This document shows, piece by piece, positions 330 to 64,000 of a stretch of 64,000 nt of DNA. The stretch covers positions 1 to 64,000 of the forward strand of contig JAFZWN010000015.1 of NCBI GenBank assembly GCA_017617295.1, given 5' to 3'. The position numbers and the translations under genes are program-made. Below the pieces are notes generated by a model that ran no database searches, was not told where the DNA came from, and worked only from the letters and a program-made list of their open reading frames with translations. Each line of letters begins with the position of its first letter. Positions within the stretch are counted from its first letter, which is position 1. This stretch comes from Clostridiales bacterium (lineage in GTDB: Bacteria; Bacillota; Clostridia; Saccharofermentanales; Saccharofermentanaceae).

Positions 330-3300
330 ATGTTTGACAGGCTGAAAAAGAGAGTATCCGGAGCACTCGCAGTCTTTTTTGCCGTTGGTTTGCTGATGCC
401 TAACCTTTCGGTAAATGCTTTGACTGAAGAACAGAAGGATCTTTCGAAGGTTCTGGACTTTGTACCGGCAACATCCACTTCACTTGGTACTGCAGGCGGA
501 TTCGGCGTCTTCAGTAATCATTTTACGAATTCCACTCATATGGAGGGTACGATCGCTACTGCTAATCTTACTCTTCACGGTAATGCATTCGGTGTTACTG
601 ATAAGGTAATGCATAATGCGCAGTCTACCAGCTATTACTACTATTTTGAAACTATTACCGGTCAGCCTGAGCACTTCCTTAACTTTGAGAAGGGCGGTAC
701 ATCCGATTCCACATATGCTTCTGTAAGAGAAAATCCCTATGCAATGGTTTTCCCTTCCGATGTTACTTTCGATTACAGTGCAAATAACGGAAACGGTATT
801 ACTATCAGGGACGGTCAGGGATACGAGCTTGGTACGTTCAACAGCGTAACAGATGTTTCCCTTCCCGAGAGGATCATGACCATCGGTCAGCTGAATCCCA
901 GCCAGGTCATCAATTTCGGTTCTGCTTTTGCAGCTCTTTCCGGTTATGCCAATAACTACATGAACTACAGCGATGCAACTCCCATAGTTCTTGCTGAGAA
1001 TACTATTACTGAGATCAATGTTGATTCTACAGGCAACAGAGTTTATACGATCGATTACTCTGAACTTCAGAAGACAAATGCAATGCTCAACATCGTTTAT
1101 GGTGAAGAAGACTCCATCATAATCAATGTTGTTAATATCCCCGGTGAGGCTTCGTTCCAGAACGGCGGTAATGCTATTACATTCAACGGCGGCAGACAGG
1201 ACGATGCCAGAAACGGCGACGGTTCCATGAGCGTTCTCTGGAACTTCGGTTCTTTCGGCGGAAACATCTATGTTGGTGAGCAGATGACAAACGGCGTTAT
1301 CCTTGCCCCCAATGCTAATGTACTGATCACTTCCACTCATGCAGGAAGTGTCATCGCTAACAGCGTTGATAATGTTTCCGGTGAGATCCACCACTCCAGC
1401 TTCAGACAGAGAGAGAATTTCCAGCCTACTCCTACGGCTACAGCTACTCCTACAGCAACAGCCACACCTACGGCTACAGCTACTCCTACAGCAACAGCCA
1501 CACCTACGGCTACAGCTACTCCTACGGCAACAGCCACACCTACACCTGTTCCGCCCACGGCAACAGCAACACCTACACCCGTTCCGCCCACGGCAACAGC
1601 AACACCTACACCTGTTCCGCCTACGGCAACAGCAACACCTACACCCGTTCCGCCCACGGCAACGGCAACACCTACACCCGTTCCGCCCACGGCAACTGCA
1701 CCACCTACACCTGTTCCGCCTACGGCAACGGCAACACCTACGCCTGTTCCGCCCACAGCAACGGCAACTCCTACGCCCGTTCCGCCTACGGCAACGGCAA
1801 CACCTACACCTGTTCCGCCTACGGCAACAGCAACTCCTACGCCTACTCCCGCACTTGCTTCTGCTGACATCAGCAAGCAGAATCTGGGCGGTAATGAGAT
1901 ACCCGGTGCTACACTTATCATTACAGGTGCTGACACAAACGGAAATCTTGTTTCCTTCAGCGAGAGCGATGTAACAATGGGTGATAATGCAACATTCGTT
2001 TCTGACGGAGATTCCCTTGTATTCATATCCGGTACATCCGCTACTACTATCAGTAATCTTGTTGACGGTACATACAGACTTCACGAGGAGACAGCTCCTG
2101 CAGGCTACTATGTAGCTACCGATATAATCTTTACGATAGAGAACGGTATTGTAACAGGCAGCGCTGTAACAGCAGCTACAGCTTCTGAGAACGCTATCGT
2201 TACAATGCTCGACGAAGCGATCAGATACATCAAGAATCCCGAGCCTTCACTTGACATCTCCAAGGTCGATGTTGCAGGTGAGGAGCTTGCCGGAGCTACA
2301 CTTATCCTTACCGGTATTGATACAGACGGTAATACCGTTATCTTCGATCAGGCTGAGTTCGTTCCCGCATCTGATGCCACATTCATCTCCGACGGAGAGT
2401 CACTCATTTTCGTATCGGGTTCTTCCGCTTCCACCGTAAATAAGATCCCTGACGGAACATATACTCTTCACGAGGAGACAGCTCCTACAGGTTATGTAGT
2501 TGCTACAGATATAGAGTTCACGGTTGTAAACGGAGTCGTTACAGGCAGTGCTATCACAGCCGCTACAACAGATTCCAATGCGATCTGCACGATGATCGAC
2601 GAGGCCGCAGTTGTTAATCCTTCTGTTGATATCTCCAAGGTCAATGTTGCAGGCGAAGAGATCGCCGGTGCTACTCTTATCCTTACCGGTACTGATGATA
2701 ACGGTGACGCTGTTGTCTTCAGCCAGGCTGAGTTCAATCCCGCACCTGATGCGGCATTCGTTTCCGACGGTGAGTCTCTGGTATTCGTATCCGGTACGTC
2801 TGTATCTACAGTAAGTAATCTTCCTGACGGTACATATACTCTTCATGAGGAAACTGCTCCTACAGGTTATGTGGTAGCTACAGATATCCAGTTCACGATC
2901 GAGAACGGCGTGGTTGCAGGAAGTGCCATCACAGCAGCCACAACAGATTCCAATGCGATCTGCACAATGCTCGATGAGGCTGAGATCCTTCCTCCCGCAC
3001 TTGATATCTCCAAGGTCAATGTTGCAGGTGAAGAGATCGCAGGTGCCACACTTACACTTACCGGTGTTGATGCTGACGGTAACTCCGTTGTATTCAATGC
3101 TAATGACGTAGTCCTCGGTGATTCCGCAGAATTCGTTTCCGACGGAGATTCCCTGGTATTCGTTTCCGGTACGACAGCTACAACAGTTAACAATCTTCCC
3201 GATGCTACATACATCCTTCACGAGGTTACAGCTCCTACAGGATATGTAGTAGCAACTGATATCCAGTTCACGATCGAGAACGGTGTTGTTACGGGAAGTG

Positions 3301-3749
3301 CTATCACAGCTGCTACCGCTGAGGCTAATGCGATCTGCACGATGCTTGACGAGGCTGAGGTTATCAACCCCACCGAGACACCTACTCCTACACCTACCGA
3401 GGAGCCTTCTCCTTCTCCTACGCCCACACCTTCTGTCGGAAGAACAGTTACAAGTGTTGAGGTTGACGGTACAAGGATCGATCCCACCAAGTATGTTGTA
3501 GAAGAAGATAACTCCGTATCCGTATCCACAGATGCAACGAGAGTTCTCTCCGAGGGCCGCCACAGAGTCGTAGTCAACTACTCTGACGGAACAACAGATC
3601 AGACAACAGTCCAGATCACAGGCGATACTGTTACTGTTGTTGCTACGGGCGAAGTATTTAATCCTACGGATATTATCGTAGCATTCTCGCTCATCGCCGC
3701 AGCCGCTCTGATCCTTAAGCTCAGAAAGAAGGCTTTCGGCAACGTCTGA
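330..3749 (+). CDS. Large surface adhesin: choice-of-anchor A domain, Pro/Thr stalk, four SpaA-like repeats
   Basis: A 1139-residue exported protein. Residues 1-30 form a signal peptide (positive start, hydrophobic core, ending SVNA). About 38-355 resemble the choice-of-anchor A adhesin module, with the late VLWNF, GVILAPNA and GEIHHSSF signatures. About 368-508 are a Pro/Thr/Ala stalk of short perfect repeats. Four SpaA/Cna-B-like beta domains start near 513, 640, 766 and 891, each with an ISKxxxxGxEIxGAT opening and a GTYxLHExTAPxGY core; the last ends near 1010. A second PTPT linker, a small beta domain, a hydrophobic helix (about 1113-1130) and a basic tail follow. No canonical LPXTG is present; VVATGE before the helix is a possible degenerate sortase signal, otherwise the helix is a membrane anchor. 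The start is set by AGGAGGGG upstream of ATG 330. Monocistronic, bounded by its own terminator. A role in adhesion is inferred from the domains; the ligand is unknown. Confidence 0.88.
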   Translation: MFDRLKKRVSGALAVFFAVGLLMPNLSVNALTEEQKDLSKVLDFVPATSTSLGTAGGFGVFSNHFTNSTHMEGTIATANLTLHGNAFGVTDKVMHNAQSTSYYYYFETITGQPEHFLNFEKGGTSDSTYASVRENPYAMVFPSDVTFDYSANNGNGITIRDGQGYELGTFNSVTDVSLPERIMTIGQLNPSQVINFGSAFAALSGYANNYMNYSDATPIVLAENTITEINVDSTGNRVYTIDYSELQKTNAMLNIVYGEEDSIIINVVNIPGEASFQNGGNAITFNGGRQDDARNGDGSMSVLWNFGSFGGNIYVGEQMTNGVILAPNANVLITSTHAGSVIANSVDNVSGEIHHSSFRQRENFQPTPTATATPTATATPTATATPTATATPTATATPTATATPTPVPPTATATPTPVPPTATATPTPVPPTATATPTPVPPTATATPTPVPPTATAPPTPVPPTATATPTPVPPTATATPTPVPPTATATPTPVPPTATATPTPTPALASADISKQNLGGNEIPGATLIITGADTNGNLVSFSESDVTMGDNATFVSDGDSLVFISGTSATTISNLVDGTYRLHEETAPAGYYVATDIIFTIENGIVTGSAVTAATASENAIVTMLDEAIRYIKNPEPSLDISKVDVAGEELAGATLILTGIDTDGNTVIFDQAEFVPASDATFISDGESLIFVSGSSASTVNKIPDGTYTLHEETAPTGYVVATDIEFTVVNGVVTGSAITAATTDSNAICTMIDEAAVVNPSVDISKVNVAGEEIAGATLILTGTDDNGDAVVFSQAEFNPAPDAAFVSDGESLVFVSGTSVSTVSNLPDGTYTLHEETAPTGYVVATDIQFTIENGVVAGSAITAATTDSNAICTMLDEAEILPPALDISKVNVAGEEIAGATLTLTGVDADGNSVVFNANDVVLGDSAEFVSDGDSLVFVSGTTATTVNNLPDATYILHEVTAPTGYVVATDIQFTIENGVVTGSAITAATAEANAICTMLDEAEVINPTETPTPTPTEEPSPSPTPTPSVGRTVTSVEVDGTRIDPTKYVVEEDNSVSVSTDATRVLSEGRHRVVVNYSDGTTDQTTVQITGDTVTVVATGEVFNPTDIIVAFSLIAAAALILKLRKKAFGNV
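1431..1853 (+). repeat. Coding minisatellite in the adhesin stalk (18-bp then 33-bp units)
   Basis: Six near-perfect 18-bp units encode PTATAT and are followed by nine 33-bp units encoding PTATATPTPVP (one with PTATAPPTPVP). Synonymous variation between units (ccc/cct, aca/acg) shows the repeats are not all recent copies. Such in-frame units, being multiples of 3, can change stalk length by slippage or recombination without breaking the frame. Confidence 0.9.
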
Positions 3750-14185: not shown

Positions 14186-14377
14186 GTATACTAAATCTCT
14201 TTATAGAGGCATTTAGTATACTTTTCAAGGATGTTTTTTCTACTAAATGCTTTGTATTATCAATTTAGTAGAAGAAGCGGGATCATTTTGTAGACTAAAT
14301 GAGATTTAAAACGAAAACAGTAGATAATACAGGCTGTATTTGTATACTGAATCCTGAAAATATGAAGTTTAGTAGAA
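14186..14377 (+). repeat. 26-bp-phased alternating motif array, locus A (eight motifs)
   Basis: Ten-bp motifs begin exactly every 26 bp and alternate in orientation: 14186 GTATACTAAA, 14212 TTTAGTATAC, 14238 TTCTACTAAA, 14264 TTTAGTAGAA, 14290 GTAGACTAAA, 14316 AACAGTAGAT (degenerate), 14342 GTATACTGAA, 14368 TTTAGTAGAA. Motifs 1/2 and 3/4 are perfect inverted pairs although the pairs differ from each other, so partners co-vary. The 16-bp spacers are unrelated. The array lies between the 3' ends of two convergent genes and 13 bp before a nested hairpin. Not a CRISPR: the repeats are too short and alternate in direction. Function unknown. Confidence 0.93.
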
Positions 14378-14389
14378 CTTCGTAAGATC

Positions 14390-14519
14390 AATGACCGGCT
14401 TAAATCTAACATACAGATCCGCATGCACTGTCAAGGCCGAAGACGCCCGCGCGGTGCCCGATGACCAGTCTTGACTGTATGGCTTGCCGGATCTGTTCAC
14501 TGGTCATAAGCCGGTCATT
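14390..14519 (+). repeat. Nested hairpin element, copy A
   Basis: A 130-nt imperfect palindrome with three stacked stems: AATGACCGGCTTA (14390-14402) with TAAGCCGGTCATT (14507-14519), ACAGATCCG (14413-14421) with CGGATCTGT (14488-14496), and GTCAAG (14430-14435) with CTTGAC (14470-14475). Unpaired segments of about 10 nt separate the stems. A second, diverged copy with the same stem order lies at 62842-62965. It separates the eight-motif array from the four-motif array. It could act as DNA or, if transcribed, as a structured RNA; no promoter is evident. Confidence 0.85.
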
Positions 14520-14525
14520 GGCTGA

Positions 14526-14613
14526 GTATACGTAATTTGAAAAAGTGCTATAAGCGTATACAATTTCCTGCCTTTGAGTATACGTAAATCCTGAAAAAAC
14601 AAAATACGTATAC
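14526..14613 (+). repeat. 26-bp-phased alternating motif array, locus A' (four motifs)
   Basis: Motifs at 14526 (GTATACGTAA), 14552 (AAGCGTATAC), 14578 (GTATACGTAA) and 14604 (ATACGTATAC) keep the exact 26-bp step and alternating orientation. The core differs from the array on the other side of the hairpin (CGTAA in place of CTAAA). The rest of the intergenic region up to 14693 shows nothing further that I can support. Confidence 0.9.
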
Positions 14614-32916: not shown

Positions 32917-32947
32917 GATTCTTGCTTAAGAATTTTACAGTTCACTA

Positions 32948-33044
32948 CTTATCAAGAGAGGCAGAGGGAACCGGCCCAGTGAAGCCCGGCAACCGCGGAA
33001 AGCAGCGGTGCCAAGTCCGGCGGGGAGACCCGGAAGATGAGAGG
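32948..33044 (+). promoter_or_regulatory. SAM-I (S-box) riboswitch aptamer upstream of metK
   Basis: The sequence follows the S-box consensus: CTTATCAAGAGAGGCAGAGGG, GCCCAGTGAAGCCCGGCAACC, GGTGCCAAGTCC, then the closing GATGAGAGG. The end of the aptamer (GAGAGG, 33039-33044) can pair with CCTCTC in the 5' half of the following terminator, giving a classical transcription-OFF switch: high SAM frees the terminator and shuts down metK. Confidence 0.96.
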
Positions 33045-55405: not shown

Positions 55406-55485
55406 TTATTGCCCTCTCAGAAAAATTACCGCAGATCGGTTGAAAAGGGCTCTTCACGGATTGCCCGATAACATTTACCCAGCCC

Positions 55486-55677
55486 GTTTACTAAATCTGA
55501 GAAATCATGATTCTAGTAAATGATTTTCCATTAAAATATTTACTAAAAGTCGGATTTCAAAGTTCTGGTAAACGAAATTCATTAAAATCATTTACTAAAA
55601 TCGTGTTATCGCCGGTTTGGTAAACAAATGATGCGAAAAACATTTACTAAAAGCCTAAAATACAACATTTAGTAAAT
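55486..55677 (+). repeat. 26-bp-phased alternating motif array, locus B (eight motifs)
   Basis: Motifs start at 55486, 55512, 55538, 55564, 55590, 55616, 55642 and 55668, an exact 26-bp step throughout. Sequences in order: GTTTACTAAA, TCTAGTAAAT, ATTTACTAAA, TCTGGTAAAC, ATTTACTAAA, TTTGGTAAAC, ATTTACTAAA, TTTAGTAAAT; orientation alternates every time. The 16-bp spacers are mostly unrelated. The array lies between a terminator and the promoter region of the following lipoprotein gene. No nested hairpin accompanies this copy. Confidence 0.95.
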
Positions 55678-62841: not shown

Positions 62842-62965
62842 GCCGGCATAAGCAAATCGTATCAGATCCGCTCTGCCCGATGTCAAGGACTTAAAGCCGC
62901 GAGGTGGTGTCCTTCGGGCCTCCTTGACATCACAGCCGGATCTGTATAAAAGGTGATAAGCCGGC
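62842..62965 (+). repeat. Nested hairpin element, copy C
   Basis: Three stacked stems: GCCGGC (62842-62847) with GCCGGC (62960-62965), CAGATCCG (62863-62870) with CGGATCTG (62937-62944), and GATGTCAAGGA (62879-62889) with TCCTTGACATC (62921-62931). Stem order, the shared words CAGATCCGC, TGTCAAGG and GCCGGATCTGT, and the GGTGATAAGCCGG end match the copy at 14390-14519. In the outer stem the pair flanking CCGGC is A-T in copy A and G-C here, a compensatory change. Confidence 0.87.
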
Positions 62966-63033
62966 AGAGGACTTGTGATAATCATTTGACTTGCTCCGCG
63001 TACCGTTAGGCAGCATTATCTGTTGATAGCAGT

Positions 63034-63224
63034 GTATTCCAAAATGTTGAATATTTCGATTTGGCATACAATTATTGATTATGATGTATTCCATTCTCCG
63101 TGTATTTTGCTTTTGGCATACGTTTTTTCAATTATTGTATTCCAGATCATTAATTTCAGAGTTTTGGCATACGATTTTATGTTATTTTGTATGCCAACTC
63201 ATTGGATTTTACTTTTTGGAATAC
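63034..63224 (+). repeat. 26-bp-phased alternating motif array, locus C (eight motifs)
   Basis: Motifs start at 63034 GTATTCCAAA, 63060 TTTGGCATAC, 63086 GTATTCCATT, 63112 TTTGGCATAC, 63137 GTATTCCAGA, 63163 TTTGGCATAC, 63189 GTATGCCAAC and 63215 TTTGGAATAC. Steps are 26 bp except one of 25; orientation alternates throughout. The array lies 68 bp after the nested hairpin and ends 28 bp before a probable -35 of the PD-(D/E)XK-like gene. Confidence 0.94.
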
Positions 63225-63252
63225 AGAGCATTTTAGCGAAATCAAAAGAATG

Positions 63253-63281
63253 TTCACTTTTTGCTTATCGGAGAGTATTAT
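63253..63281 (+). promoter_or_regulatory. Probable promoter of the nuclease-like gene
   Basis: TTCACT (63253-63258) and TATTAT (63276-63281) with a 17-bp spacer, placing array C immediately upstream of the polymerase site. Confidence 0.4.
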
Positions 63282-63314
63282 TGTTTTATAACAAAAATGA
63301 GAGGAGGGTTTTCT

Positions 63315-64000
63315 ATGTCGATCAAGATTCTGAGAGAGGCTATTATAAAGCGTTGTGATCTGCTGTCGAAGTTTATTCCCGAATTGGAAAAGAAACTTAT
63401 CGGATTCCCTGAAGGCAGACTTAAAACGACCCGCAGAGGGGATGTTGTAAATTATTATCTTGTTAATTGTCCTGATGGTAATACCCGGATGCTGAAAAAG
63501 TCGGAACATGGTATTGCAAAACAACTGGCACAAAAAGCATATTTTCAGAGAGTATTAAGAATTGCGGGTCAGGAGCAGGAGACACTTAAGGTTATTCTGA
63601 CCAAGTTACCGGAAACAGTCATGGAGGATGTTTATGATCAGTTGCCGCAGGATAGAAAGGATCTTGTTAAGCCCATTGTTCTGCCTGATTCCGAGTTCTC
63701 CAAAAGATGGCAGGAGGAGCCTTATATCGGTAAGCTTATAGATGAGAATACTCCTTTCTTTGAGACTTTGAAAAAGGAAAGGGTAAGGTCAAAGTCTGAG
63801 CAGATCATCGCAGACAGGCTATATTTAAATAATATTCCGTATAAATATGAGTGCCCGCTGAAACTTGGCAAGAAGACTGTTCATCCTGATTTTACGATCT
63901 TACGGATGAGTGACAGAAAAGAGCTCTATTATGAGCATCTGGGGATGATGGATGATGAAGGTTATGCCAACAGGAATGTTAAGAAGGTGAATGAATATAC
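63315..64000 (+). CDS. PD-(D/E)XK nuclease-like protein, 3' end beyond the window
   Basis: At least 228 residues, running off the window. GGAGGG precedes ATG 63315 by 6 nt. The N-terminal ~150 residues are helical and charged with no recognised family. From ~158 the sequence has a restriction-endonuclease-like pattern: SKSEQIIADRLY (Glu162, motif I), VHPDFTIL (Asp192, motif II) and YYEHLGMMDD (Glu207, motif III, in E-H-x-G form). I recall related uncharacterised proteins in Lachnospiraceae-type genomes, but no function. Its neighbours here are array C and the nested hairpin. The base composition is more AT-rich than the surrounding core genes, consistent with an accessory gene. Confidence 0.7.
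   Translation, partial: MSIKILREAIIKRCDLLSKFIPELEKKLIGFPEGRLKTTRRGDVVNYYLVNCPDGNTRMLKKSEHGIAKQLAQKAYFQRVLRIAGQEQETLKVILTKLPETVMEDVYDQLPQDRKDLVKPIVLPDSEFSKRWQEEPYIGKLIDENTPFFETLKKERVRSKSEQIIADRLYLNNIPYKYECPLKLGKKTVHPDFTILRMSDRKELYYEHLGMMDDEGYANRNVKKVNEY

Follow-up and report, generated by a model that had tools for sequence, protein, structure and literature searches.

In operators of the Lrp or MetJ type, a gene is preceded by several half-sites that are in helical phase, and A/T tracts bend the DNA. A coupling between dispersed repeats and a gene has a published precedent in the RAYT/REP systems, where the repeats are associated with a transposase gene (PMC2817692). The window examined here, i.e. 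the whole 64-kb stretch of DNA that was analysed, carries at positions 55486 to 55677 a solo array of a class which normally lies directly upstream of multi-copy PD-(D/E)XK nuclease genes. Arrays of this class resemble the Lrp- and MetJ-type operators in their upstream half-sites in helical phase and in their apparent A/T-tract bending. They differ from them by a motif proper to each paralogue, by a strict alternation of up to 14 sites and by the predicted nuclease gene linked to them.

The likeness to REP/BIME-RAYT elements (PMC2817692) lies in regularly spaced, alternating extragenic repeats, in their position near a nuclease gene with further copies dispersed, and in a fast-evolving protein which appears to change together with its repeat. 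In contrast, the protein is here of the PD-(D/E)XK type and not a Y1 HUH transposase; the 10-bp units (e.g. ATTTACTAAA, GTGCACCAAA) are not full palindromes and have no GT(A/G)G head; the steps are exactly 26 bp and the arrays stand upstream only. The RAYT Y1 transposase (PF01797) is absent from seven genomes searched for it (G000, the window genome; G022, G031, G039, G041, G056 and G066) and present in G008; membership in RAYT/BIME was rejected, as the array-rich genomes have no Y1 transposase. A literature search, with subscription papers mostly outside its coverage, returned no description of such arrays or of the gene family. Neither the arrays nor the gene family match a described system in the libraries searched.

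In our main reading, to which we give a probability of roughly two in three, each linked nuclease-family protein has its cognate sites clustered in the array, on curved double-stranded DNA, and these serve self-regulation and/or mobility. Each array would offer the protein of the adjacent gene a cluster of usually 4 to 14 half-sites, paired as convergent 10-16-10 dyads at intervals of 52 bp. The fast-diverging N-terminal half of this protein would read the motif, probably with one dimer per dyad, and the conserved C-terminal half would be the nuclease. A/T tracts phased at 10.4 bp may provide a curved double-stranded platform on which successive dimers coat or wrap the array. An occupied array could then regulate the gene and/or guide the nuclease to its element. 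Solo arrays such as that at 55486-55677 would have been dispersed or left behind as copies, some of them within MITE-like elements. The geometry, the linkage to the gene family, the gene-specific motifs, the A/T phasing, the lack of hairpin covariation and the lineage-specific occurrence are observed; that the linked protein binds its own array as a dimer and cuts, and the role of this binding, we infer. We also lean towards regarding the whole as an undescribed system of diversifying PD-(D/E)XK paralogues, each with its own upstream phased alternating array and with solo cognate arrays dispersed; it might be an independent RAYT/REP counterpart or a self-recognition nuclease system.

The features of the window to which the text refers are the following.

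14186-14377, no strand: second solo array, eight motifs GTATACTAAA / TTCTACTAAA in 26-bp steps, sixth unit weak
14388-14526, no strand: palindromic hairpin module of ~130 bp between the 14186 and 14526 arrays, repeated elsewhere in G000
14526-14613, no strand: third array, four motifs of GTATACGTAA type in 10-16-10 geometry
55448-55469, + strand: tentative TIR-like sequence (GGTTCTTCACGGAATTCGCGGG-like), resembling the terminal inverted repeat of a MITE of the same genome that bears a related array
55486-55677, no strand: solo array of eight alternating RTTTACYARA motifs in exact 26-bp steps, forming four convergent 10-16-10 dyads
62842-62964, no strand: sequence of the hairpin module upstream of the gene-linked array
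63034-63225, no strand: gene-linked array, eight GTATKCCAAA motifs alternating at 26 bp with one 1-bp shift
63315-64000, + strand: gene for a predicted PD-(D/E)XK nuclease of 264 aa; it runs past the window end to contig position 64106

Apart from these, the window contains a SAM riboswitch at 32946-33043 (RF00162, 73.6 bits) and, at 1422-3359, tandem repeats of 18/33-bp and then ~390-bp units, apparently in coding sequence.

The motifs of the 55486 array start at 55486(+), 55512(-), 55538(+), 55564(-), 55590(+), 55616(-), 55642(+) and 55668(-). All seven start-to-start steps are exactly 26 bp and the unit measures 10 bp, which confirms the eight alternating 10-bp motifs and the period of the original prediction. 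Its motif (RTTTACTAAA / TTTRGTAAAY) was correct as to alternation and site; as a consensus RTTTACYARA fits better, three units being C or G variants (ATTTACTAGA, GTTTACCAGA, GTTTACCAAA). The array had also been held to be neither a tandem repeat nor a CRISPR, and this is supported. Identity with a CRISPR was rejected on the basis of alternating 10-bp units with 16-bp gaps, as against direct repeats of ~25-40 nt with unique spacers.

Geometry alone sets the arrays apart from chance. A motif-agnostic scan of the 64-kb window, in which any 10-mer could alternate at any gap from 4 to 49, found gap 16 six times, gap 13 once and every other gap not at all. This excludes a chance origin of the alternating 10-16-10 pattern without using the motif. 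The same gap scan gave 168 matches at gap 16 and at most two at any other gap in the fetched loci, many of which had been chosen with the gap-16 pattern, so that the window scan is the cleaner test of the gap. Three further arrays of the window, absent from the original prediction, emerged: those at 14186-14377 and 63034-63225 were found by the motif-agnostic scan and that at 14526-14613 was added by inspection. The mixed motif of the 14186 array is that of the array upstream of a nuclease gene on contig C39. Since the gaps are equal only with a 10-bp unit, a 9-mer scan at uniform 26-bp steps misses arrays.

At the array loci that were fetched, 70 of 73 convergent pairs and 43 of 53 divergent pairs have the exact offset, and the remaining ones deviate by +/-1 bp. 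Arrays mostly begin and end with a full convergent pair and comprise 4, 6 or, most commonly, 8 units. Searches with 7-bp-core patterns revealed many further arrays in G000; these are intergenic and flanked by unrelated genes, which may be in tandem, convergent or divergent.

The spacers differ in sequence, yet their A/T content peaks at intervals of 10.4 bp, or five times in 52 bp. The 10.4-bp A/T power of the spacers reaches 4.48, compared with a maximum of 0.69 in 500 shuffles. In the central A/T run of the convergent spacer 69% of the steps are AA/TT and 12% TA, as in A-tracts. Because this phasing is far above that of the shuffles, a symmetric protein on double-stranded DNA, as first suggested from the sequence, is favoured. 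The phasing points to curved double-stranded DNA and to a protein which would read both dyads.

Single-stranded hairpins with 10-bp stems and 16-nt loops had been offered in the same place as the other possibility. Convergent pairs can form such stems and loops, and the arrays might be transcribed and fold into a row of hairpins, as RNA or as single-stranded DNA, perhaps guiding the nuclease. However, units match at 8.95 of 10 positions in convergent, 9.02 in divergent and 8.88 in non-neighbour pairs (p = 0.67); convergent units are no more alike than other pairs and thus give no sign of selection for hairpin pairing. The arms mutate independently, the partner-specific compensatory changes expected of a structured RNA are absent and the 55486 array has no match in Rfam. 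Furthermore, divergent spacing is nearly as rigid as convergent spacing, and the spacers are defined by helical A/T phase and not by pairing. A hairpin or structured-RNA reading was rejected and appears very improbable.

The linkage between arrays and nuclease genes was assessed in the upstream regions of 63 distinct family genes of the genus, gathered by protein similarity only and scanned for any motif. With at least five units, the pair sum was 52 at 15 of the 63 genes, 51 at three, 53 at one and 62 at one; no other sum between 40 and 65 occurred, and the 126 control windows contained no alternating array of at least five units at the same cut. When at least four units were required (best pair sum 44-91), a cut applied to the 63-gene set only while the 126 control windows were scanned at the stricter cut of at least five, 39 of 63 genes had an array, 38 of these at 50-53 bp. 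By this method 24 of the 63 genus genes have no detectable array. The arrays lie ~60-250 bp upstream of the gene, i.e. promoter-proximal, and on the upstream side of the nuclease gene only. In the window, the array at 63034-63225 ends ~90 bp before the start codon of the nuclease gene at 63315; the relatives of this gene in G000, on contigs C39, C89 and C140, each have an array just upstream, which makes four of four close family members. Family genes outside the genus have arrays with periods of 45, 52, 54, 74, 75 and 83.

The motifs are gene-specific, nearly each gene having its own (for example TTATCCCAAA, GCCTACTAT, TGCCCCAT, TCTAATCCAAA, GAGATACAAA). This bears on the possibility that some other regulator, or a nucleoid protein, uses the arrays as operators and simply has the nuclease genes as its targets. 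Such a regulator would be consistent with the promoter-proximal position, and a protein that bends or wraps DNA with the strong A/T phasing. On the other hand, motifs vary from gene to gene in one genome at constant geometry, so that no regulator common to all of them can recognise every motif; this disfavours a single trans-acting factor. Moreover, no other gene accompanies the arrays, and solo arrays have unrelated housekeeping genes next to them, in all orientations. We consider this possibility unlikely. Array-specific motifs with diverged spacers are also the leftover expected from homogenization, and motif uniformity within an array could be neutral, the product of template switches among inverted repeats in which a binding protein plays no part. 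Such a process is hardly credible here: it is disfavoured by the linkage to one gene family, for which it does not account, and it explains neither the same 26-bp geometry with unrelated motifs nor the A/T phasing of spacers that are not repeated.

A second array type consists of 32-bp direct steps (AAAAGGTTGAA, GGGGGTAA, TTTCGTTGTA, TCCGTGGTGGTA), several of these arrays having one inverted end unit. Such arrays stand upstream of a second G000 subfamily of these nuclease genes, and solo copies occur as well; examples are L185:926-1060 (G000 C88), L032:5067-5170 (C7), L202 (C110) and L276-L278 (C143, C93, C114). Between array and promoter of orthologous nuclease genes, a conserved element GAGACCAGTCTCA with GTCTCA boxes was observed at nine loci (L230, L232, L234, L235, L236, L244, L249, L296 and L310).

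The linked genes are classed as predicted PD-(D/E)XK nucleases by their active-site residues and by PADLOC matches. Over 54 members, E162 and PD192F of the C-terminal half are invariant and E207 is near-invariant. The C-terminal nuclease domain matches PADLOC PDDEXK models to 1e-28, the candidates named being PDC-S68/S69 and HEAT_CxxC_PDDEXK, and one family member weakly matches the TnsA N-terminal domain (0.013). While the C-terminal domain is thus like that of TnsA-like and Vsr-like PD-(D/E)XK nucleases and of the PADLOC candidates, the linked family differs in being standalone (~264-265 aa) with a divergent N-terminal half. Searches of Pfam, NCBIfam and PDB gave no family or relative for the protein, and a single-sequence structure prediction was of too low confidence (pLDDT 41) to show a fold. 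Of 85 genomes of the genus, 82 have the family in several copies; among 293 genomes sampled from the class it is present in 30. Mean identity across the family is 0.34 in the N half versus 0.59 in the nuclease half.

Does the protein track its array? The orthologous genes L235 and L230 have the same motif, and their identity is 0.89 over the N half and 0.84 over the C half; L235 and L244 have different motifs, and here the N half drops to 0.62 and the C half is at 0.98. At these orthologous loci the array thus appears to track the N-terminal half; recombination of the 3' half alone could give the same pattern, because the array lies next to the part of the gene that codes for the N-terminal half. 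A comparison of 38 genes revealed no correlation between the similarity of the motifs and the N-terminal identity of the proteins (rho -0.06, permutation p 0.84); most pairs have diverged so far that hardly any signal could be expected.

Solo arrays were also compared with the gene arrays of their own genome. In tests that are not independent, 14 of 25 matched at p<0.05, including all nine in G000, a part of the test which is biased because the solo arrays were found with the ACYAAA core common to G000 gene arrays. Among the matches are 63 versus 14190 and others. The motif TCTTCTACTAAA of the G031 gene C25:14403 is that of six G031 solo arrays. The solo arrays of G066, G039 and G022 have no matching gene array among the genes examined, and the RTTTAC motif of the 55486 array has no gene-linked twin in the G000 assembly, which is 92% complete.

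Relatives in the genus (rumen Saccharofermentans-type clostridia) carry many more arrays. A three-unit pattern with one mismatch matched 23 of 115 family genomes, some of these being single chance-level matches, and the reversed control pattern matched seven genomes. A stricter four-unit pattern, run over all GTDB species, occurred only in rumen Clostridiales, Ruminococcaceae bacterium AB4001 and Saccharofermentans sp., and at one Schinkia locus. Phase-conserved arrays in other genomes, the check proposed with the original prediction, were accordingly found. The Schinkia azotoformans locus (L079:3565-3800), outside the genus, is made up of ten ACCAAA units in alternating orientation at 26 bp; their flanks alternate between two types, and the locus may be an ordinary 52-bp tandem repeat. 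No array was found in the viral contigs of IMG/VR and no family relative in viral contigs; phage records gave only two partial matches to the family and plasmids domain fusions. A viral or plasmid origin was rejected on these results.

The presence of an array is lineage-specific, as illustrated by the interval between rpmF and der. It measures 77-103 bp in seven close relatives, where it is empty, versus 327-339 bp when filled by an array. G066 and G022 have arrays at this same place, each of eight units at 26 bp. The motifs are RTGCACCAAA in G066 versus mostly ACGTACYAAA in G022, and one spacer is unchanged: all eight motifs of these orthologous solo arrays have changed together. A separate comparison concerns an 8.7-kb segment with a solo array (L103:6278-14969 in G039, L110:612-9303 in G066) that is 96% identical, other compared regions of the two species being 74-86% identical; this suggests recent transfer or strong local conservation.

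The array at 55486 is likewise part of an insertion. It sits between a ROK kinase gene and valS, in a gap of 1.64 kb in G000 versus ~30-40 bp in most relatives. The G000-specific insertion contains the array and a lipoprotein gene, and no relative compared has an array at this position. Beside the array, the tentative TIR-like sequence at 55448-55469 is the only such end, no matching right end having been found at this array. Elsewhere in G000, near-identical copies on C142, C97, C144, C31 and C116 form an element of ~600 bp with an array inside. It has 22-23-bp terminal inverted repeats (GGTTCTTCACGGAATTCGCGGG) and an apparent 8-bp target duplication (AAAAAGAA) read from two contigs; both repeats and duplication were seen in the C142/C97/C116 family. 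This one array family resembles MITEs in its terminal repeats and apparent duplication; most arrays, the gene-linked ones included, are without such terminal repeats, and none of those of the ~600-bp element occurs at gene-linked array loci.

Such elements raise the question of whether the arrays are themselves the mobile part, as parasitic MITE-like or BIME-like repeats moved by a nuclease or by a transposase and devoid of a regulatory role. The ~600-bp G000 element with its AAAAAGAA duplication and the arrays which are insertions relative to other genomes (rpmF-der, ROK-valS) would fit, and RAYT/REP shows that a coupling of this kind exists (PMC2817692). However, terminal repeats are missing at gene-linked loci and only one TIR-like end is present at 55486, the arrays flank the gene on one side alone, and the array-rich genomes have no RAYT and G000 no ISL3 transposase. 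We find a purely mobile role distinctly unlikely. Mobility and cognate binding are compatible, and this alternative is partly the same as our main reading of the arrays as clustered cognate sites. An ISL3 transposase (PF01610) was rejected as the mover, with none in G000 and only short fragments in G021 and G041.

Further copies of the terminal repeat GGTTCTTCACGGAA occur in G000 at C16:31088, C107:5224, C57:17753 and C99:23920 (L196, L198, L204, L210); after the last of these come an array-like stretch, whose motif differs (TTCCGTATA), and the hairpin module. This module has the pattern ACCGGCTTA...AGATCCG...TGTCAAGG...CCTTGACA...CGGATCTG...AAGCCGGT and ~10 diverged copies by DNA similarity. 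It repeatedly adjoins arrays or family genes, in the window at 14388-14526 and 62842-62964 and on C140, C142, C88, C93 and C114; the order module-array-gene seen at 62842-64000 recurs on C93 and C114.

Our findings connect two unannotated things: genes of a common family with several copies per genome, and intergenic DNA of a strikingly regular kind. Should every protein read the array next to it, the genomes would contain a ready-made table of proteins and sites, in which the specificity code of a new DNA-binding nuclease would be directly testable. If true, this would be a second, unrelated case of nuclease genes co-evolving with dispersed intergenic repeats, so far known for the RAYT transposases.
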